Positions 17,593 through 38,742 of a stretch of 38,742 nucleotides of DNA are shown piece by piece. The notes below the pieces were generated by a model that did no database searches, was not told the origin of the DNA, and worked only from the letters and a program-made list of their open reading frames with translations. The translations under genes were made by a program, and so were the position numbers. How positions within the stretch are numbered: position 1 is the stretch's first letter; every line of letters starts with the position of its first letter. Where the stretch lies: contig CAMYLR010000028.1 in assembly GCA_947259315.1 (NCBI GenBank), positions 1-38,742 on the forward strand. The letters run 5' to 3'. This DNA comes from an uncultured Gemmatimonadales bacterium (GTDB lineage: Bacteria; Gemmatimonadota; Gemmatimonadetes; JACCXV01; JAHWKZ01).

Positions 17593-18444
17593 TTGCTTCG
17601 TATCGCACTCATACAACAGCATGCCTCTCCCGATCGCGACGAGAACATCGCCCGTGGACTCTTCGCGTTGGCCGAGGCTGCCCAAAGCGGTGCCGAGTTG
17701 GTCTGTTTCGCGGAGCTAGCGTTTGAGCGGTTTCATCCGCAGAGCCCGGCTGACGGACCGGTCGTCGGCCTAGCGCAACCGGTGCCGGGCCCCCTCACCG
17801 ACGCCTTCACCGCAGCCGCGCGTGAGCAAGGCGTGGTCGTCATTCTGAACCTGTTCGAACGTGATGGCCAAAAGACCTTTGATACATCGCCGGTCATCGA
17901 TGCCGACGGTACGTTGCTCGGGAAAACCCGCATGGTTCACATTACCGACTACCCGTGCTTTCATGAACAGGACTATTACGCACCCGGCGACACCGGCGCT
18001 CCGGTCTACGCGACCGCGGTTGGCTCGATAGGGGTCGCGATCTGTTACGACCGCCACTATCCCGAGTACATGCGTGCGCTGGCGCTATCCAGCGCCGAGA
18101 TCGTGGTCGTCCCTCAAGCTGGCGTCGAGGGCGAGTGGCCAGACGGTCTGTATGAGGCCGAGATGCGGGTCGCAGCCTTTCAGAATGGCTACTTCGTCGC
18201 CCTTTGCAACCGGGTAGGCGAAGAAGAGCACCTGGCCTTCAGTGGCGAGTCGTTCGTCAGTGCGCCCGACGGGACGGTAGTTGCGCGTTCCCCTGGTGGG
18301 GAGGATTCTATTCTGTACGCTGACGTTGACCTCCACGCCGTGCACGACTCGCACGCACGGCGTCTGTTCTTGCGTGATCGGCGGCCGAGCCTCTATCCCA
18401 ACTGGCTCACCAGCACGGATCGCGTCTGCAATCCAGGTGTATAG
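17593..18444 (+). CDS. Nitrilase-superfamily carbon-nitrogen hydrolase
   Basis: The 283-residue cytosolic protein carries the nitrilase-family triad: Glu41 (CFAELAFERF), Lys110 (LLGKTRMVHI) and Cys150 (GVAICYDRHYPE). The motif pattern and length are closest to N-carbamoylputrescine amidase and beta-ureidopropionase-like enzymes, which release ammonia and CO2 from N-carbamoyl amines. The substrate is not certain. The start is TTG at 17593; AGGT lies upstream, and no ATG fits without losing the first strand. The phosphatase gene follows after 9 bp, suggesting co-transcription. A link to nitrogen release fits with the neighbouring amino acid dehydratase, but that is inference. Confidence 0.85.
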   Translation: MLRIALIQQHASPDRDENIARGLFALAEAAQSGAELVCFAELAFERFHPQSPADGPVVGLAQPVPGPLTDAFTAAAREQGVVVILNLFERDGQKTFDTSPVIDADGTLLGKTRMVHITDYPCFHEQDYYAPGDTGAPVYATAVGSIGVAICYDRHYPEYMRALALSSAEIVVVPQAGVEGEWPDGLYEAEMRVAAFQNGYFVALCNRVGEEEHLAFSGESFVSAPDGTVVARSPGGEDSILYADVDLHAVHDSHARRLFLRDRRPSLYPNWLTSTDRVCNPGV

Positions 18445-18453
18445 TCGAGGCCG

Positions 18454-19752
18454 ATGAAGAACAGACACCTGATCGCCTGCCTTTTTTCGGTTCTGATCGC
18501 CACCGGTCTGGCGTTCGCCGCATGCTCCTCTGTACCCGAAGCCGCGAACTTCGATGGCGGGGCGCCAATGCCGCCCGGAGGACTCGAACGCCGACCGTAC
18601 CTCATCGCCGTGACGGATTCTTCGGCCATCGTTCGTTGGCGGACGTTCACGCCATCGACACCAACGCTTCGGTTCTGGGGCCCTGGCGACACGATCCCCG
18701 TCCGCGCCCCACTGCCCGGTCCAAACACCGACCACACCGTGCTGCTCAAAGATCTGAGCCCCGTGACCGAGTATACGTACCAGATACAAACTGAGGATCT
18801 CGGATGGAACAATCCGGCCAAGTTCCGGACCTTCGCCTCCCCGGGTGCGGATGACCCGTTCACGTTTCTCGTCTTTGGAGACTCGGGCACCCGCAACACC
18901 GGTCAGATGGCCCTGGCACAGCAACTGAACAACGAGAATCCGGCATTCATCATCCATACTGGGGATCTTGCCTACAAGTCGGGCACCGAAGCCGAACTCA
19001 GCATCAACCACTTTCAGGTTTATGCGCCACTGTTACGCCGCGCCGCGTTCTTTGCCACGCCGGGTGATCATGACCTAAGAACGAGAAACGGCGGCCCGTT
19101 CATCGCCGCTTTCAATCCGCCGGGCGGTTGGGATTCGGGGGCCGCGTTCTACTACACGTTCGATTACGGCAACGCTCGGTTCATCGCGCTCGACACGAAA
19201 GACACGGATCGACACAAACGGCTCTACGGCAGCCTGGCTAATAAGTCCGGCAAGTCGTACCGATGGTTAGTCGCTCAACTCGAGGCCGCCCGGGCTGATC
19301 CCAATGTGGATTGGATCTTCCTTTTCTTTCACCACTCACCATACAGTGCATCGACCGGGTGGGGCGGACATGGTTCAGACGAGGACATCCAGGAGATTCT
19401 CGTTCCGTTAGCTGATGAATATGGAGTCAACTTCACGTTCAGCGGCCACGATCACGACTATCAGCGGTCGCACTCACTGCGCGGTGACGAGATCGTCCAG
19501 GACGGCTACGGAACGGTGTACGTCGTGAGCGGCGGCGGTGGCGGGAAACGCACGTTTCGCGGCACCGGAAGCAAGTGGTTCACCGCCTACGCTGATCAGG
19601 TTTACCACTACATTCGCGTGCACGTCAACGGTTACACCGCGCGGATGGAAGCGATCGACACCGAAGGCCAAGCGTTCGATTCCTACACGGTGTCGATCCC
19701 TCTCGAGCGCCGAAAGACCCGCGAAACAGAGGCTTTGCCCGCCGCCCAATAA
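18454..19752 (+). CDS. Exported purple-acid-phosphatase-like metallophosphoesterase
   Basis: The 432-residue protein has a signal peptide with a Cys near the cleavage site (LAFAAC), so it may be a lipoprotein. Residues about 45-125 look like the N-terminal fibronectin-III-like domain of purple acid phosphatases. The catalytic domain (about 135-385) shows the five metal motifs in order: FGDSG, GDLAY, GDHD, HHSPY and GHDHDYQRS. In the third motif Asp stands where most families have Asn (GNHD/E). It probably hydrolyses phosphomonoesters outside the cytoplasm. The gene starts 9 bp after the nitrilase-family gene. Confidence 0.88.
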   Translation: MKNRHLIACLFSVLIATGLAFAACSSVPEAANFDGGAPMPPGGLERRPYLIAVTDSSAIVRWRTFTPSTPTLRFWGPGDTIPVRAPLPGPNTDHTVLLKDLSPVTEYTYQIQTEDLGWNNPAKFRTFASPGADDPFTFLVFGDSGTRNTGQMALAQQLNNENPAFIIHTGDLAYKSGTEAELSINHFQVYAPLLRRAAFFATPGDHDLRTRNGGPFIAAFNPPGGWDSGAAFYYTFDYGNARFIALDTKDTDRHKRLYGSLANKSGKSYRWLVAQLEAARADPNVDWIFLFFHHSPYSASTGWGGHGSDEDIQEILVPLADEYGVNFTFSGHDHDYQRSHSLRGDEIVQDGYGTVYVVSGGGGGKRTFRGTGSKWFTAYADQVYHYIRVHVNGYTARMEAIDTEGQAFDSYTVSIPLERRKTRETEALPAAQ

Positions 19753-29775: not shown

Positions 29776-29847
29776 CATGTGGCCGCAAAGACCCTCCCAC
29801 AGACGGTTGTTTTCTGGGCACTTATGCTGGAATCGGCGAAGAATACG

Positions 29848-32115
29848 ATGGTCGAGATTCGCATACACGGTCGAGGCGGCCAGGGCGGTGTCACGCTGGC
29901 CAAGCTCATCGCGACGTCCCGGTTCCTCCAGGGCCAGTCGGTGCAGGCTTTTGGCTTATACGCCGCCGAGCGCTCGGGCGCTCCGATCCAGGCGTTCTGT
30001 CGCTACTCTGACGACACGATCCACAACCGCAACCTCATCTACGAGCCCGACCACATCATCGTCCTCGATCCCACGCTGGTCGGTCCGGGGATCACGGGCG
30101 GTCTGAAACCGGGCGGATGGATCCTCATAAACACCCCGGCATCGCCCGACACGTTGCAGGAGCAGTTTTCGAGCAATCGACTGGCCACCGTCGATGCGAC
30201 ATCGATCGCCCGACGCAACAAGCTCGGCACGCGCACGGTTCCGATCGTGAACACGGCACTCGCCGGTGCGGCAGCCCGGATGCTCGGCTTCGATCTCGAC
30301 GAGATGCGAGCCGCCGTCGAGCACCTGGGGTTCGCCGGCTCCAACATCACGGCGGCCGAGGAAGCATACGATCAGCTCCGGGTATTCGAACCAGCGAGTC
30401 TTCCAACGGTTAGCCGATCGAAGGGTGCATCATCGACCGGGCTTTACCATACGGACGAGGAGCGAGGTCCGAGTTTCGTCGAGGGGGCGGGTGGCGGTCT
30501 CCCCGGAATTGAAACTGGATTGTGGGCAACCGAACAGCCGCACCGCCAACAGTTCGTCCCACCCTGCAACCACGTATGCCCGGCAGGCAACGATGTCCAA
30601 GGTTTCCTGGCGGCGCTCGCCAATGACGACGTCGATAACGCGTTGGCGATCATCGTGCGCACTTCCCCGTTCCCGTCTATCTGCGGACGCGTCTGCCCTG
30701 CACCTTGCATGGCGTCGTGCAACCGAATCGAGCTCGATGAGGCGGTCAACGTTCGACAGCTCGAGCGGTACGCCGGGGACAATGGACAAGCCACTGTCGA
30801 ACCGCTAACCACGCGCGACGAACACATCGCGGTGGTCGGATCCGGGCCCGCCGGCCTCACGGCGGCATACCATCTCGCACGCCTCGGCTACTACGTGACG
30901 ATCTACGAGCAGGGCTGGGAGATCGGCGGGCTCCTGCGAACGGGGATACCCGGTTATCGCCTGCCACCGGATGTCCTCGATCGGGAGATCGGACGCATTC
31001 TGTCGCTCGGGGTCGATGTTGAGGTTGGTGAGGTGATCGACCGCAACCGGATGCTCGAGCTCACACAGAGCCACGACGCCGTGCTCGTGGCCACCGGGCT
31101 GCAAGAGCTTCAAGCGCTGCGTTTGGGCGTGGGTGACGCCGAAGCCGTGGAACAAGGGATCGACTTCCTCGATCGATCTCACCGTGGCGAGGTGCGAGTG
31201 GACGACGAGCACGTGGTCGTCGTTGGGGGTGGAAACACCGCCATGGACGCGGCACGGTCGGCGCTGCGTCTCGGCGCCACCAACAGCCAGGTGATATACC
31301 GCCGCACGCGAAACGAGATGCCGGCTATCAAGGAGGAGATCGAAGAAGCACTGCAAGAGGGTGTGGCGATCGACTTCCTCATCCAGCCGATCACGCTCAA
31401 GGTCAACGACGGGGGTGGGTCGAACCAGCGTCGACATAAGCTCGTCTGCCGTCGGATGGAGCTCGGCGAGCCCGACGAATCGGGTCGACGAAGGCCGGTC
31501 GAGTTGGATGGATCCGACTTCGAGCTTGAGTGCGACCGCGTGATCCTGGCGCTCGGTCAATCCCCCGACCTGAGCGTCTTCCCCGAGGGCACAGAAGTCA
31601 GGCAGGGTCAAGAGCTGTTGGGGCTTTTGGAGACCCCCGTATACGCGATCGGCGATCTCGCCACGCGGGACGGGACGGTCGCCGGCGCCATCGGTAGCGG
31701 TCGCCGCTCGGCGTTCCACATCCATAACACCTTGAACGACCTCGAAGTCCCGGTCACGATACAGACCGAGACCTCGAGCAACGTAGAGGTCTGGCACAAC
31801 GACGTGATCCGATCGGACAGCTTGAAGCTCCACCTGTTCGAACGGCGCCCCGCCTCCGACGGTGTGGCGATCGCTCCCGAAGTCAGACGCACCACGTTCG
31901 ACGAGATCCACGCCGGACTCACCGATCCGAGTGAGGCCAAGCGGTGCCTGTCATGCGGCGTGTGCAACAGCTGCGACCTCTGCGTGACGTTCTGCCCAGA
32001 GGGTGTGCTGAAGCGGGTCGGGAGCGATCTGATATTCGATTATGCCCATTGCAAGGGGTGCGGGATCTGTGTCACAGAGTGCCCGCGGAACGTTGTCTTC
32101 ATGAGTCACCTGTAG
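29848..32115 (+). CDS. 2-oxoacid:acceptor oxidoreductase gamma subunit fused to GltD-like flavoprotein and ferredoxin
   Basis: This 755-residue protein joins three units. Residues about 1-185 are the gamma domain of pyruvate/2-oxoacid:ferredoxin oxidoreductase (IHGRGGQGGVTLAKL, AERSGAP). Residues about 238-640 resemble the GltD/YgfK NAD(P)H-FAD flavoprotein, with Cys clusters (CNHVCPAG, CGRVCPAPCMASC), FAD site GSGPAGLTAAY, NAD(P) site VGGGNTAMDAAR and a second FAD motif YAIGDLATRDGTV. Residues about 690-755 carry two ferredoxin clusters (six Cys in CLSCGVCNSCDLCVTFC, then CKGCGICVTECP). The start ATG at 29848 precedes the gamma fold; upstream ATGs at 29779 and 29824 would add non-homologous residues. 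Electrons probably pass between NAD(P)H and the alpha-beta core. Phenylglyoxylate oxidoreductase has similar parts as separate subunits. Confidence 0.88.
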   Translation: MVEIRIHGRGGQGGVTLAKLIATSRFLQGQSVQAFGLYAAERSGAPIQAFCRYSDDTIHNRNLIYEPDHIIVLDPTLVGPGITGGLKPGGWILINTPASPDTLQEQFSSNRLATVDATSIARRNKLGTRTVPIVNTALAGAAARMLGFDLDEMRAAVEHLGFAGSNITAAEEAYDQLRVFEPASLPTVSRSKGASSTGLYHTDEERGPSFVEGAGGGLPGIETGLWATEQPHRQQFVPPCNHVCPAGNDVQGFLAALANDDVDNALAIIVRTSPFPSICGRVCPAPCMASCNRIELDEAVNVRQLERYAGDNGQATVEPLTTRDEHIAVVGSGPAGLTAAYHLARLGYYVTIYEQGWEIGGLLRTGIPGYRLPPDVLDREIGRILSLGVDVEVGEVIDRNRMLELTQSHDAVLVATGLQELQALRLGVGDAEAVEQGIDFLDRSHRGEVRVDDEHVVVVGGGNTAMDAARSALRLGATNSQVIYRRTRNEMPAIKEEIEEALQEGVAIDFLIQPITLKVNDGGGSNQRRHKLVCRRMELGEPDESGRRRPVELDGSDFELECDRVILALGQSPDLSVFPEGTEVRQGQELLGLLETPVYAIGDLATRDGTVAGAIGSGRRSAFHIHNTLNDLEVPVTIQTETSSNVEVWHNDVIRSDSLKLHLFERRPASDGVAIAPEVRRTTFDEIHAGLTDPSEAKRCLSCGVCNSCDLCVTFCPEGVLKRVGSDLIFDYAHCKGCGICVTECPRNVVFMSHL

Positions 32116-32123
32116 CGGAGACG

Positions 32124-33299
32124 ATGATGAGCGTCGAGGTCGTATCTGGGAATCACGCAGCCGGTTACGCGCTGAGCGTGGCGGGCGAAGCGAACCGCGC
32201 CGCCCGCGGCGCGAGCTGCGGGATTTACCCCATCACACCACAGACCGAGATCGTCGAATACGTCGCCAGTTTCCCGTTCCAAAAGAGCCGTGTGGTACCC
32301 GTCGAGAGCGAGCACAGTGCGATGGCGGTGTCGATCGGGGCCTCGCTGGCTGGTGCACGCGCGTTCACCGCCAGCTCCTCGAACGGGATCGCCTACATGG
32401 TCGAGAACATCATGGTGGCCGGGTACTACCGGTTGCCAATTGTCATGGTGGCGGTGAACCGCACGCTGGGCCCACCGTGGAACATCTGGGCCGACCAGGG
32501 AGACACCCTGATGTTGCGTGATTTTCCGTGGATTCAGTTCTATGCCGAGGACAATCAAGAAGTGCTCGACGCGACGCTGATGGCGTTCCGGCTGGCCGAA
32601 GACCATCGGATCCTGCTCCCCGCCCTGGTCGCCATGGACGCCTTCATCGTGTCCCACACGCAAGCCGAGACCGTGCTGCCGGATCAGTCCGCGGTCGATC
32701 GCTATCTCCCCGAGCTGGACCTGCCGCATCGGTTGCTGCATGAAGATCCAAAGACCCTGGGTGGCCTGGCCTGGCCGGAGGTCGCGATGTCGCTCCGGCT
32801 CGAGATCGACGAGGCGATGGACCGGGTAGACGAAGTGTTCGGGGAGTGTCGGGCCGCGTTCCGCGACGTGTTCGAGCGCGATCCGGGCGGCGCCATCGAG
32901 ACTCTGGGGACCGAAGACGCAGAAATCGTCGTCGTCGTCTCGTCATCGATCGCGACGACGGCGCGCGAGATCGTGAAGCAACGACGAGCAGCGGGTGAGA
33001 AGATCGGCTTCGTCAAGATCAAGATGTTCCGCCCCTTCCCCGAACGCGCATTGCGAGAAGCCTGCAACACAGCCAAGGCGGTAGCGGTCCTCGATCGTAA
33101 CTACGCGGCTGGCGTTGGCGGCGTCTTCTGGCAGGAAGCAAAAGCCGCGTTCCAGGGGCACCGCGACGACCTCATTATTCAGGACTACCTAACCGGGCTC
33201 TGTGGAGGTGACGTGACTCCCCCGATGATCGATGAGGTCATCGCCGACGTCACGACTCGCGACGCCGAGACGAAACCCATCTGGATGACCGCACCATGA
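32124..33299 (+). CDS. 2-oxoacid:acceptor oxidoreductase alpha subunit
   Basis: The 391-residue protein matches the alpha subunit (domains I and II) of pyruvate/2-oxoacid:ferredoxin oxidoreductases. It starts SGNHAAGYA, then GIYPITPQTEIVEYVA, then VESEHSAMAVSIGASLAGARAFTASSSNG with the activation Glu. The C-terminal half has the domain-II pattern VKIKMFRPFPERALREA. With the beta subunit it forms the thiamine-diphosphate site where a 2-oxoacid is oxidatively decarboxylated to an acyl-CoA. Which 2-oxoacid is used is not apparent. There are two consecutive ATG codons (32124, 32127) after GGAG. Its stop overlaps the beta start (ATGA). Confidence 0.9.
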   Translation: MMSVEVVSGNHAAGYALSVAGEANRAARGASCGIYPITPQTEIVEYVASFPFQKSRVVPVESEHSAMAVSIGASLAGARAFTASSSNGIAYMVENIMVAGYYRLPIVMVAVNRTLGPPWNIWADQGDTLMLRDFPWIQFYAEDNQEVLDATLMAFRLAEDHRILLPALVAMDAFIVSHTQAETVLPDQSAVDRYLPELDLPHRLLHEDPKTLGGLAWPEVAMSLRLEIDEAMDRVDEVFGECRAAFRDVFERDPGGAIETLGTEDAEIVVVVSSSIATTAREIVKQRRAAGEKIGFVKIKMFRPFPERALREACNTAKAVAVLDRNYAAGVGGVFWQEAKAAFQGHRDDLIIQDYLTGLCGGDVTPPMIDEVIADVTTRDAETKPIWMTAP

Positions 33300-34231
33300 A
33301 TGGCGATCGACCGATATCGACGCTGGAACAAGCACCACCGATCCCATGCACCGAAGAGTGTCTACTTCGCCCGGGCAACACGAATTGCGGCGGTTGCGGT
33401 ATGGGCGTGGGATTGACGATGCTCGGCCGCGCGCTGGCCGAAGCCGACGACACGTGCACGCTGGCGATCCCCGCGTGCTGCGGAATCGTCACCGCGGGCG
33501 CCTTCCCGACCACGAGCTACGGTGTACCGACGGTGGCCACGACTTTCGCCTCCGCGGCGGCGGTTGCCGCCGGAATCGCCACCGTACGCGATCTAAATGA
33601 AGAACGTGGTCAGGTGATTTGTTGGGCCGGAGACGGCGGCACGTACGACATCGGGATCGCCACGCTCTCCGCTGCCGCCGAGCGCAACGAGAACATCATC
33701 TACATATGTTATGACAACGAGATCTACGGAAATACCGGTGGGCAGCGCTCGTCCGCCACGCCCCCAGGCGCCCGCACGACAACGACACCGGGCGGGAAGA
33801 GCGAAGAGAAGAAAGACATCATGGCCATCATGGCAGCGCATCAAATCCCGTACGCCGCGACCCTGTCGATCGCCCACCCCGACGATTTTTCTCGCAAGCT
33901 AAAGACCGCGTTTAACACCCCCGGAACGCGGTTCCTCCTAATGCACTCGCCGTGTCCAACCGGATGGAAGTCGGAGCCCGCCGATTCCGTGGAGCTGGTG
34001 CGTCTGGCCGTTGCGAGCGGGCTCTTCCCTCTTTACGAAGTCTGGAACGGCAGTGCCTGGCGCATCAACGTCGAGCCCGACTGGACCAGTCCAACCGAGT
34101 ACTTCCAACGCCAACGACGGTTCAAGGATGGTGAGATCGATCTTCAGGCGACCGAGCGGTCGTGCCGGGACCAGTTCAAGCGCCTGAAGACCCTGGCCCA
34201 AGAATTTCCGCACAAAACCGAGGAAGGCTGA
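33296..34231 (+). CDS. 2-oxoacid:acceptor oxidoreductase beta subunit (thiamine diphosphate)
   Basis: The 311-residue protein carries the thiamine-diphosphate motif GDGGTYDIG...YDNEIYGNTGGQRSSATPPGA (split here), typical of pyruvate:ferredoxin oxidoreductase beta subunits. NCGGCGMG (Cys31, Cys34) with Cys in PACCG and in CPTGW would ligate a 4Fe-4S cluster next to the cofactor. Together with the alpha gene and the fused gamma-flavoprotein-ferredoxin gene it completes an oxidoreductase. The start overlaps the alpha stop by 4 bp (ATGA at 33296), so the subunits are made by coupled translation. Substrate is not assigned. Confidence 0.92.
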   Translation: MNGDRPISTLEQAPPIPCTEECLLRPGNTNCGGCGMGVGLTMLGRALAEADDTCTLAIPACCGIVTAGAFPTTSYGVPTVATTFASAAAVAAGIATVRDLNEERGQVICWAGDGGTYDIGIATLSAAAERNENIIYICYDNEIYGNTGGQRSSATPPGARTTTTPGGKSEEKKDIMAIMAAHQIPYAATLSIAHPDDFSRKLKTAFNTPGTRFLLMHSPCPTGWKSEPADSVELVRLAVASGLFPLYEVWNGSAWRINVEPDWTSPTEYFQRQRRFKDGEIDLQATERSCRDQFKRLKTLAQEFPHKTEEG

Positions 34232-34232
34232 G

Positions 34233-34532
34233 ATGGCAAAGATCGAAGTGGAACAGCTGGATGACACGAAGTATCGCGTCACCATCGAAGGTCCCGAAAA
34301 GACGACGAACCACGAAGTGACGATCGATCACCCGTACGTCGAGCGGTTGACCGGCGGATGGCACACCACGGAGTCGCTGCTCGAGCAAACGTTCGAGTTT
34401 ATGCTCGAACGGGAGCCCAACACGTTGATCTTGAAGAAGTTCGAGATCACGACACTGCCTCGCTACTTCCCTGACTACGAGCGCAGGGTCAAAGAGATGC
34501 TCGACAACGCAGATCAAGTGAAACACGGTTGA
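34233..34532 (+). CDS. Hypothetical 99-aa operon protein
   Basis: A soluble 99-residue protein with a beta-strand N-terminus (KIEVEQLDDTKYRVTIEG) and a helical C-terminus rich in charged residues; it includes HEVTIDHPYVERLT and LPRYFPDYERRV. No Cys, signal or membrane helix is present. It starts 1 nt after the beta-subunit stop, with AGGAAGG in the end of that gene as ribosome site. Its stop overlaps the TTG start of the molybdenum hydroxylase gene (TTGA). The strict coupling suggests a structural or assembly role for one of the neighbours, but no family is recognised. Confidence 0.75.
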   Translation: MAKIEVEQLDDTKYRVTIEGPEKTTNHEVTIDHPYVERLTGGWHTTESLLEQTFEFMLEREPNTLILKKFEITTLPRYFPDYERRVKEMLDNADQVKHG

Positions 34533-37174
34533 CAGACGCCGTCGAGACGGTTCGGTTTTCGCTCAACGGTCACCCGGTCGAGTTTGAACCGCGAACGGGT
34601 GAGACGCTGCTGGAGGCGTTGCGTGACCGTTGCGGTGTGCGTTCGGTAAAGGACGGCTGTTCGCCGCAGGGACAATGCGGAGCATGCCTGGCGATCGTGG
34701 GGGGGCGCGCGCTCGTTACCTGCGCGATGCCGGTCGAGAACGCGGCCGACAAGGAGATACTGACCCTCGAAGGGGTGTCGGACGAGGAGCGCGGAATGCT
34801 GGCCGACGCGTTCGTCGCCGCGGCTGGCCTCCAATGCGGGTTTTGTATCCCTGGCATCGCCCTTCGGGCTAAGCACCTGCTCGACAAGAATCCGCACCCG
34901 ACACGTACCGAGATCGCCAAGGCGATCGACGTCCATCTGTGTCGCTGCACGGGCTACACGAAAATCCTGGACGCCGTTGAGCTCTTCGCCCGTATCCGTG
35001 ATGGCGAGGGCACGCTGGTCGTTTGCGAGGACGGAGGGGTCGGCAAGCGGTTGGCGCGGTACGAGGGCCGGCAGCTCGTTCTGGGCGACCGACCATACGT
35101 AGCGGACATGACCCGCGACGACATGCTCCATGGCGCGGTCGTGCTTTCGCGTCATCCGCGCGCACGCGTCCGTAGTATCGATACGTCACGCGCAGAAGCC
35201 ATGCCTGGCGTCATCGCCGTTGCGACGGCCATCGACGTTCCCGGTGAACGCTGGTACGGGCTCATCGACAACGACTGGCCCGGCTTTGTCGCCGAGGGTG
35301 AGGAGGTGCGGTGCGTGGGTGATTTCCTGGCAGTCGTCGCGGCACTCGACGCGTCCTCTGCACGTGCAGCAGCGGAACGGGTCGATGTCGAGTACGAGAT
35401 CCTCGATCCGGTACTCGACATGGAAGCCGCGATCGCCGACGGAGCACCACGGGTCAACCCCAAACATCCGAACCAGCTATCACACACGGTGATTCGTCGT
35501 GGCGACGTGGCTCGTGGCTTTGCGGATAGCGCGCATGTAGTCGAAGGCGTGTGGACCACTCAGCGCGTCGAGCATCTGTACCTGGAACCCGAGAGTGCGC
35601 TCGCCGAGCCAGGCGAAGAGCCAGGAACGTTTCGCCTCTACACGCAGGGCCAGGGAGTATTCGATGACCGTGAGCAGGTGGCGGCTTTCCTCGGTATCCC
35701 CGCGGACGAGCTCGACGTCGAGCTCGTTCCAAACGGCGGTGCGTTCGGCGGCAAGGAAGATCTGTCGATCCAGCCGCACGCAGCGCTGCTCGCCATGATG
35801 ACCGGTCGCCCGGTTCAGGTCACGCTCAATCGGGAAGAGTCGATTCGGGTGCACCCGAAGCGACACCCGATCCGCATGCGGTACAAGGTGGGTTGCGACA
35901 TCGACGGTCACCTCACAGCGGTTGAGGCGCACATGCTCGGCGACACCGGCGCCTACGCGTCGGTCGGGGCAAAGGTCCTCGAGCGCGCCGCCGGCCACGC
36001 TTGCGGTCCATACCGGGTTCCCAACGTCGCCGTAGACGCGATCGCCGCCTGCACGAACAACCCGCCTTGCGGCGCCATGCGTGGCTTTGGCGCCAACCAG
36101 GCCCACTTCGCGATCGACGGCTGCCTCGATCTCCTGGCGGAAAAAGTGGGCATCGATGGGTGGGAGATGCGCTGGCGCAATGCGGTCGACATCGGGGATC
36201 AGTTTGCAACCGGGCAGGTGTTCGAGAAATCAGTCGGGCTCAAGAAGACACTCCAAGCCGTTCACGACGAGTACTACCGAGCGCGCGGCGACGGCCGCGC
36301 TGTCGGTATCGGGTGTGGCATCAAGAACAGCGGCATCGGCAACGGCGCCATAGAGTGGGGAAAGGCGCGGCTCGCAGTCGAGCCGGATGGCACGATCTCG
36401 TTGTACAACGGTTACACCGAGATGGGACAGGGGCTGCTGACGGTGCTGGTGCAATTTGCGGTCGAAGTCACCCGGCTGCCTGCAGCGATCTTCCGCCCCA
36501 AGGTCGACTCGACCTTCGCGCTGGCTTGCGGTCAAACGACGGGCTCGAGGGCGACCCTGTTTGGTGGTAACGCGGTCGTGGGGGCCGCGACCAAGCTCAG
36601 GGCCGCGCTCGACGCCGGCTTCACTCTCGAAGAGCTAGCCGGACAGGTGTTTGCCGCCGACGTCATGGTCGACGACACCACTAGCACCGAGATGGAAGTC
36701 GATAAAGTCAAAACACACACGGCTTTCGGGTTTGCGACCCAGGTCTGTATCCTCGACCCAAACGGCCGTGTGGAGAAGTTTATCGCCGCGCACGACGTCG
36801 GTCGGGTCGTGAACCCAGCGCTATGCGAAGGGCAGATCGAAGGATCGGTTCACATGGGGCTCGGCTACGCGCTTACCGAGGAGCTGCCGTGCGAGAACGG
36901 CTGGCCGGTGACGTTCAAGATGCGCGAGATCGGCCCGTTGCGCGCGCGCGACATGCCTGACGTGGAGGTGCTCCTCGTTGAGGAGCCCGAGCCGGAAGGG
37001 CCGTTCGGCGCAAAAGGTGTCGGCGAGATCGGACTCGTGCCCACAGCGGCGGCGGTGGCGGGAGCGCTGGCCGCGTTCGATGGCACACGGCACTACACGC
37101 TGCCGATGAAGGACTCGCCTGCCGCCCGCGCGATGAGCGTCGGCCGCATCCGGCAGAGAGCGCCCAGCCGATAG
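34529..37174 (+). CDS. XdhD-type molybdenum hydroxylase (2Fe-2S plus Mo domains, no FAD domain)
   Basis: The 881-residue protein joins a ferredoxin-type [2Fe-2S] domain (Cys44, 50, 53, 65) and a second helical [2Fe-2S] domain (Cys103, 106, 138, 140; CRCTGY) to a molybdopterin-binding domain (about 195-865). Mo-domain motifs are [30 protein letters not shown] and [13 protein letters not shown], with Glu833 as the expected catalytic base. Aldehyde-oxidase/xanthine-dehydrogenase enzymes hydroxylate purines and N-heterocycles. The FAD domain is absent, as in E. coli XdhD, so electrons must go to a partner, plausibly the fused flavoprotein/ferredoxin subunit. The start is TTG at 34529, overlapping the preceding stop. 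Substrate is not determined. Confidence 0.9.
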
Positions 37175-38178
37175 CTTCCGGCCACGTCAACGCGCACACC
37201 CACATCTACAGCGGCCTAGCGCCCTTTGGGATGCCCCGGCCAGACCCCGAGCCGCGCAATTTCGTGGAGATCCTCGAACGCGTTTGGTGGCGTCTCGACC
37301 GCGCATTGGATGCCGACTCCCTGCGCGCGAGTGCGCGGCTGTACGTAGCCGAGGCGATCGAGCATGGGACGTTCTCGCTGATCGATCATCACGAGTCACC
37401 GGGCATGATCGACGGCTCACTCGATATCTTGGCCGACGCTTGCCAGCAGCTCGGGGCACGCGCCGTGCTCTGCTACGGAGCCACCGAGCGCAACGACGGA
37501 CGAGACGAAGCGCGCCGCGGGTTGGAAGAGTGCCGGCGTTTTCTGAGCGAGAACCGGCGCCCGCTGGTGCGTGGCGTGGTTGGGCTGCACGCGTCGTTCA
37601 CCGTATCCGACGAGACCATCCAAGAAGCAGCTGCGCTGGCGCGTGTGCACTCTACGGTGCTGCACGTTCACGTTGCCGAGGACGGCGCCGATGTGCGAGA
37701 CGCACGCGAGCGCGGCTACACGGGGGTCATCGACCGGTTCGATCGTTTGGGGGCGCTGATACCAGGTTCAATCTTCGCCCACGGCGTTCACCTGACGCCG
37801 GATGAGGTCCGTAGCTGCGCGACCAACAACTGTTGGTTGGTGCAGAATCCACGTTCCAACCGCGGTAATGGGGTCGGGTATCCGGGCGCGCTCAGCGAAA
37901 GCGACCGGGTCGCGCTCGGCACCGATGGCTATCCGGCCGACATGGCGGTCGAAGAGGAAACGCTAATCGAGGAGGCGCGCGCCGCGGGAGACGATCTTTC
38001 GCACGCACAAAAACGGTTACAGGCGGGATCTCGCTTGATTGCGGAGCGCTTCACGAACGTGGATACACTCGACGAATCGGAAAGCCTGCGGGCGCAAGCA
38101 ACGTCCGAGATGGCCGCCATTCGCGAGGAGGCGCACGTGCAGGCCGAGAAACTCTGGACCCGGATGCAGGCGCTGTAG
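37171..38178 (+). CDS. SsnA-like amidohydrolase lacking the beta-sandwich, probable ATA start
   Basis: The conserved part continues upstream of the first ATG (37231). In the same frame, codons from 37171 encode [15 protein letters not shown], the first metal-binding strand (HxH) of SsnA-type amidohydrolases. No ATG, GTG or TTG is found in frame upstream for at least 100 bp. ATA at 37171 overlaps the hydroxylase stop (ATAG), matching the ATGA/TTGA junctions of this operon. That gives 335 residues, against about 442 for E. coli SsnA. The barrel is retained: [40 protein letters not shown]. The N-terminal strands and about 60 C-terminal residues of the beta-sandwich are absent, though the end (WTRMQAL) still matches. 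It is expected to hydrolyse an amide or deaminate a ring. Confidence 0.75.
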
Positions 38179-38204: not shown

Positions 38205-38742
38205 ATGAACTCTCTGGAACTGGAATACGAGGTTGTTGATCGCACCGTTCGCGATCGTACGGTCGCGCACTTCCGCGAGTGTGGCATCGGGTTGCCAACA
38301 CTATCTGAGCTCGCAGACCCCACGACGATCGACGAGCCGTTCCAAACAGCGCTTGGTTCCATCGATCCCGACAAACCAGAAGCCCTGAACCTCTACCGAG
38401 TGCATTGGTACAACGGCGTCGAGGATCGGCACCCGGTTCCGGTGCCAGATCACGTCGTCCTGCCCCCAGAGCTTACCGGGGTCGAGAGTCCGATCGTGGT
38501 CGTGTACGGCGACCGATTCCCGATGATCCACGCTCACAAGGTCCTCCCCGCGTACAGCTGCATCGTTTCACGTCTCGTAACCGGACGGTTCGACCCCACG
38601 CGCCACCGCGCCATCTGGCCATCGACCGGCAACTACTGTCGCGGTGGGGTCGCGATCTCTCGCATCCTCGGTTGTCGTGGGGTTGCCGTTCTTCCCGAGG
38701 GTATGAGCGACGAGCGTTTCCAGTGGCTCGAGGCCTGGGTCG
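38205..38742 (+). CDS. Fold-type-II PLP-dependent enzyme, C-terminus off the window
   Basis: Only 179 codons are visible. [10 protein letters not shown] places the likely Schiff-base Lys at 112, and STGNYCRGG (140-148) is the substrate/cofactor loop of cysteine-synthase/threonine-synthase-type enzymes. The N-terminal 80 residues are an extension not typical of small cysteine synthases. AGAGG precedes the ATG at 38205, 26 bp after the amidohydrolase stop. In E. coli the related cluster includes YgeX, a 2,3-diaminopropionate ammonia-lyase of the same fold, so a comparable lyase role is possible. Exact activity is open. Confidence 0.8.

Follow-up and report, generated by a model that had tools for sequence, protein, structure and literature searches.

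A barrel-only SsnA-like amidohydrolase with a putative ATA start overlapping the xanthine dehydrogenase stop codon

We analyzed a stretch of 38,742 nucleotides from an uncultured Gemmatimonadales bacterium (hereafter the window), which is the entire contig C28 of a draft genome of 2.4 Mb in 33 contigs. At positions 37171 to 38178 (stop codon included; forward strand, as for all window features below) it carries a gene for a compact, barrel-only SsnA-like amidohydrolase of 335 amino acids if started at an ATA codon, identified by its Pfam match (PF01979, E-value 2.4e-25), its relatives and an AlphaFold2 model. The compact form, its recurrence, the conservation of its active site and the position of its overlap with the upstream xanthine dehydrogenase gene (xdh) are direct observations. 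We propose that the gene would encode a minimal working SsnA hydrolase within a urate operon, translated by re-initiation at AUA following a switch of the xdh stop codon, and place the probability of this whole proposal at about 0.6.

A compact protein with a complete barrel

The nearest homology of the window protein is to SsnA and not to other amidohydrolases. The two NCBIfam SsnA models match with E-values of 1.6e-77 and 3.9e-71, both below cut-off (models TIGR03314 and NF005540; 261.1 bits against 444 and 240.2 bits against 455.5), while the next family follows at 1.8e-22. The match to the SsnA profile is restricted to positions 58 to 336 of about 444. Profile, alignment and model agree that the protein lacks ~58 residues at its N terminus together with the greater part of the C-terminal sandwich, and the full-length N- and C-terminal beta-sandwich that surrounds the barrel in SsnA is absent from both alignment and model. 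The C-terminal helix with its LW..M motif is retained. The original prediction that sandwich residues are lost at both ends while the barrel and final helix remain is thus borne out.

The active site is intact. Seven residues (H9, H11, H73, H167, E170, H204 and D252) are invariant across an alignment of 43 sequences. The HTH sequence formed by H9-T-H11 (37195 to 37203) is the HxH metal-binding motif and lies on barrel strand 1 (residues 5-10). On strand 5 (residues 164-168), H167-x-x-E170 (37669 to 37680) occupies the metal ligand and catalytic glutamate positions of deaminase-type amidohydrolases. H204 (37780 to 37782) is located on strand 6 of the model, and D252 (37924 to 37926), at a metal ligand position, at the end of strand 8. 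The AlphaFold2 model built from the 43 sequences (mean pLDDT 95.7, pTM 0.93) has a complete barrel of eight strands (5-10, 67-74, 97-104, 137-141, 164-168, 201-204, 222-225 and 247-249) and a long C-terminal helix (residues 303-334; 38077 to 38172), with the sandwich strands gone. Profile, alignment and model therefore place the protein in the amidohydrolase superfamily (PF01979), with a TIM barrel and the HxH, H, H, D metal site.

Scanning genome contigs and searching by phylum yielded dozens of relatives with 50-67% identity. The barrel-only form is found in Acidobacteriota, Myxococcota, Planctomycetota and others, and the relatives lacking both sandwich halves are 56-67% identical to the window protein with intact frames. 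Given the same short form in many relatives, the complete barrel model and the intact active site, the compact enzyme is very probably real, as had been predicted, rather than the product of a frameshift.

The xdh-ssnA junction and the putative ATA start

The first canonical start in the ssnA frame is an ATG at 37231 to 37233 (Met21). It lies downstream of the H9-x-H11 motif, as originally noted. Upstream of it the frame is open to 36982 with no ATG, GTG or TTG codon, and the ATA at 37171 to 37173 is the sole NTG or ATN in the 68-codon stretch 36982 to 37185, in agreement with the claim that it is the only in-frame start-like codon. Together with the TAG stop of xdh (37172 to 37174), this putative start forms a 4-nt ATAG overlap (37171 to 37174).

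Initiation at Met 37231, the first canonical start, would shorten the product to 315 residues and remove the HxH motif, and with it the first strand of the barrel and two ligands of the metal; the Shine-Dalgarno sequence there is weaker still than that at ATA. Upstream of this Met, the family shows constraint on the protein sequence: codons 37186 to 37230 and their counterparts in relatives show 377 synonymous and 189 nonsynonymous codon differences against a ratio of ~1:3 expected from single-base changes, indicating that this segment has evolved as coding sequence within the family. We therefore reject the start at Met 37231 as extremely improbable. We also reject, as very improbable, an XDH-SsnA fusion produced through -1 frameshifting. 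The ssnA frame is indeed open for 63 codons upstream and stands in a -1 relation to xdh, but the xdh frame contains no X-XXY-YYZ heptamer from 36982 to 37174, and the upstream open frame is not conserved, with in-frame stops just upstream of ssnA in two relatives (L032 and L038).

To place the putative ATA start among its homologs, we compared the junctions of 30 relatives having a short N terminus, xdh upstream and a canonical start, measuring from the VNAHTH core. The start nearest the xdh stop falls within -8 to +11 nt of that stop in 29 of the 30, and 19 of the 30 have the exact 4-nt NTGA overlap. The window shows the same overlap geometry, though with a non-canonical start, and its gene pair is a candidate for translational coupling, for which stop and start overlap by 1 or 4 nt. 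In relatives with GTGA (L111 and L034) or ATGA (L098), stop and start are separated from the core by as many nucleotides as the ATAG of the window. The short form, which the original prediction took for a real compact enzyme, occurs in many relatives, and relatives use ATG or GTG exactly at the ATA position.

In the window, xdh ends 11 nt before the VNAHTH core with a C-terminus that matches those of the relatives, which leaves no room for a hidden ssnA N-terminal domain, and no full N-terminal domain is reachable by correcting one base. With the short form shared by relatives, we reject a frameshift artefact.

Any single substitution from ATAG to an ATG start abolishes the xdh stop. With G at 37173, xdh is computed to gain 15 residues and to run 49 nt into ssnA. 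No relative has such an arrangement, the xdh stop being located at the start region or before it, which argues that the base A at 37173 is genuine. The same result, along with the intact frames of the neighbouring operon genes, weighs against the possibility that a real compact enzyme has a canonical start, such as ATG, which an error of sequence or assembly has turned into ATA. We consider such an error rather unlikely, despite the ATG or GTG found at exactly this codon in relatives, the draft state of the genome and the location of the site 1.6 kb from the contig end.

No Shine-Dalgarno sequence was found at the ATA, the value of -2.9 kcal/mol being equalled or bettered at 47% of random positions. 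The poor codon, the missing Shine-Dalgarno and the incomplete set of pathway genes described below would fit a recent mutation that weakened or destroyed the start, leaving ssnA poorly translated or not translated and beginning to decay. Yet the frame is unbroken over its 335 codons and no active-site residue has been lost, the position of the stop-start overlap is kept, and the passage from NTGA to ATAG takes two changes, which looks more like a stable condition than the result of a single recent mutation. We regard incipient decay as unlikely.

Initiation of ssnA at AUA is, in our assessment, likely. Overlapping stop-start pairs are coupled through termination-reinitiation (PMC6728339), and a putative start of this type is what the position of the ATA best supports. 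Ribosomes terminating at the UAG of xdh would load fMet-tRNA at the AUA that overlaps it and start anew, and SsnA output would be both coupled to XDH output and lower. Because re-initiation still requires initiator tRNA, IF2 and IF3 (PMC2268962), coupling need not relax codon choice. AUA initiation in E. coli is reported to reach up to about 1% of that at AUG (Hecht 2017, as cited in PMC12864459); for an rpoS ATG>ATA SNP, about a fifth of the protein remained, and other regulation may have compensated (PMC12864459).

The ATA itself may be a side effect of a change of stop codon. The only stop that can share a 4-nt overlap with NTG is TGA, so that once the xdh stop became TAA or TAG the overlapping start would have become NTA. 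Such a switch would account for the ATA without any special mechanism. As a counterpoint, chance alone would place an A ahead of a TAG stop in this phase in about one case out of four. The ATAG junction predicts that, where two genes overlap tightly, replacing the stop codon of the first can impose a non-canonical start on the second. Gene callers limited to ATG, GTG and TTG would miss such starts, and in this gene would remove the metal-binding motif.

A second compact SsnA without ATG, GTG or TTG is present in L045 (5935-7005), where the sole candidate start is a CTG in a CTGA overlap with a fair Shine-Dalgarno; the same contig set (CAJQNK) also carries a long-form copy (L041). Separately, the infC gene of the window's own genome (L149; C8, about 19143-19352) lacks ATG, GTG or TTG near its start and has an apparent ATC start after a strong Shine-Dalgarno (AAGGAGG), as expected for IF3 autoregulation. 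This apparent ATC start makes it probable that the organism has non-canonical starts.

Loss of the sandwich domain across the family

We aligned 96 distinct proteins and scored each for the N-terminal strands (N), the C-terminal hairpin VxxVxVxGxxVV (C) and the loop DYxPPTPL...NLAGHLLFG (L). All three elements are present in 26 proteins and only the loop is missing in 34. Another 17 retain the hairpin without N-terminal strands or loop (N-C+L-), two of them contig-edge artefacts, and the one N-C+L+ protein is also an edge artefact. The remaining 18, including the window protein, lack all three. Loss of the hairpin with retention of the N-terminal strands (N+C-) was never found among the 96. 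The N- labels of L055, L066 and L139 originate from contig edges and were excluded as evidence, and that of L050 is doubtful. In about 14 clean intermediates the hairpin is kept and the N-terminal strands are gone.

On a tree of the barrel alone, the proteins without the loop form a single clade of 67 (support 100/100), the distant L087 aside. The hairpin-less form accounts for up to 8 changes on this tree, at least 4 of them on supported branches. These intermediates and repeated hairpin changes imply that the losses were ordered and repeated, each having occurred several times, rather than one event: erosion of the sandwich is stepwise, proceeding from the C-terminal loop to the N-terminal strands and then to the C-terminal hairpin, as read from the alignment and tree. 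The association between N and C loss over independent pairs is in the expected direction, with too few pairs for significance. The original prediction of a coordinated loss is therefore only half right: both halves are absent from the window protein, but they were not lost together, as intermediates without N-terminal strands retain the hairpin. We reject a single coordinated loss of both halves on the strength of these intermediates and the changes on supported branches.

We give even odds to the broader statement that a native AUA in a 4-nt overlap with UAG re-initiates a catalytically complete amidohydrolase devoid of its entire beta-sandwich, a domain that the family lost repeatedly and each time in the same order.

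Current SsnA models miss the 67-member clade, as judged from nine tested members. In addition to the window protein, all eight relatives tested from the clade fall below the cut-offs, scoring 222-265 bits against 444 and 455.5. By contrast, E. coli SsnA scores above both cut-offs, and L068 exceeds that of NF005540. Acidobacteriota, Myxococcota and Planctomycetota all have members of the clade, and none of the three is named in a published SsnA network (PMC12507026). Because the tested members of this large clade of probable urate-breakdown hydrolases score below the models, reductive purine degradation is probably underestimated in surveys that use SsnA as a marker. The clade also offers a natural series of intermediates with which to probe the role of the amidohydrolase sandwich domain.

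Operon context and comparison with known systems

The window operon encodes, in order, a PorG-YgfK C-half fusion, PorA, PorB, XDH, SsnA and a PLP lyase. The first gene (29779 to 32115) joins a PorG-type gamma domain to the C-terminal half of a YgfK/GltD-type oxidoreductase with a ferredoxin domain (YgfK residues 449-951). It is followed by genes for the alpha (PorA-like, 32124 to 33299; start picked by its position beside the preceding stop) and beta (PorB-like, 33296 to 34231; profile match) subunits of a 2-oxoacid:ferredoxin oxidoreductase. The upstream partner of ssnA (34529 to 37174) encodes a xanthine dehydrogenase of the Se-dependent type (TIGR03311, 881.6 bits, cut-off 830). Downstream, the 5' part of a gene for a PLP-dependent lyase with a cysteine-synthase fold (38205 to 38742; weak PALP match) runs off the contig end; its homologs lie immediately 3' of ssnA in every compact locus examined. 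Between PorB and XDH, a small 99-aa ORF (34233-34532) has no Pfam or NCBIfam match.

Neighbours of the compact loci include YgeW (52-59% identity), YgeY, HyuA, a separate YgfK N-half and the PLP-dependent lyase. The SsnA-type neighbourhood of XDH, YgfK, YgeW, YgeY, HyuA and PLP lyase is thus found in relatives, and the window holds XDH, the YgfK C-half and the PLP lyase. YgfK is split: the N-half stands alone in L047 (12824-11646), L048 (12912-11743) and L153 (15998-14991), and the C-terminal half follows the PorG domain in the window.

E. coli SsnA hydrolyses YgfK-reduced yanthine in the reductive urate pathway (PMC12507026). Gene context places compact SsnA in reductive urate/purine breakdown, where its product would be a working minimal metal-dependent hydrolase of the SsnA type, cut down to the TIM barrel, that by analogy with the E. 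coli enzyme would open the reduced dioxopurine ring hydrolytically. The HyuA-like genes of the window's genome are on other contigs. Neither the YgfK N-half nor YgeY turned up in this MAG, so that the pathway it encodes may be incomplete, or an assembly gap may hide the two genes. An N-carbamoylputrescine-amidase-like (AguB-like) C-N hydrolase is encoded 3' of ssnA in L034, L038, L042, L047 and L048 and also in the window at 17593-18444; it might take over cleavage of the ureido group.

The putative ATA of ssnA resembles the starts of infC (AUU/AUC), Streptomyces sigR (GTC; PMC5472188) and the rpoS SNP allele (PMC12864459) in being a codon that IF3 discriminates against. Unlike these, it would be imposed by the overlap with the upstream stop, has no Shine-Dalgarno and is predicted from sequence.

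At the level of fold, a Foldseek search of the PDB returned deaminase/chlorohydrolase amidohydrolases, with TM-scores by query length mostly of 0.7-0.75. The barrel is shared with ATZ/TRZ and nucleobase deaminases (PDB 4dzh, 3lnp, 4f0r, 7ww2 and guanine deaminase 2uz9). Solved structures among the best 50 PDB matches have 380-474 residues against 335 for the window protein, an extra length that we take to be the sandwich domain. Adenosine deaminase and phosphotriesterase are barrel-only amidohydrolases with a TIM barrel and no sandwich domain. They constitute separate subfamilies, whereas the family of the window protein ancestrally has the sandwich and has lost it repeatedly.

The closest characterized counterpart is E. 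coli SsnA (b2879; TIGR03314/PRK07203), which is 37% identical over 304 barrel residues and has the same active-site residues. Compared with E. coli SsnA, the window protein is ~53 residues shorter at the N terminus and lacks the larger part of the C-terminal sandwich. Both E. coli SsnA and compact SsnA adjoin XDH and other urate-breakdown genes.
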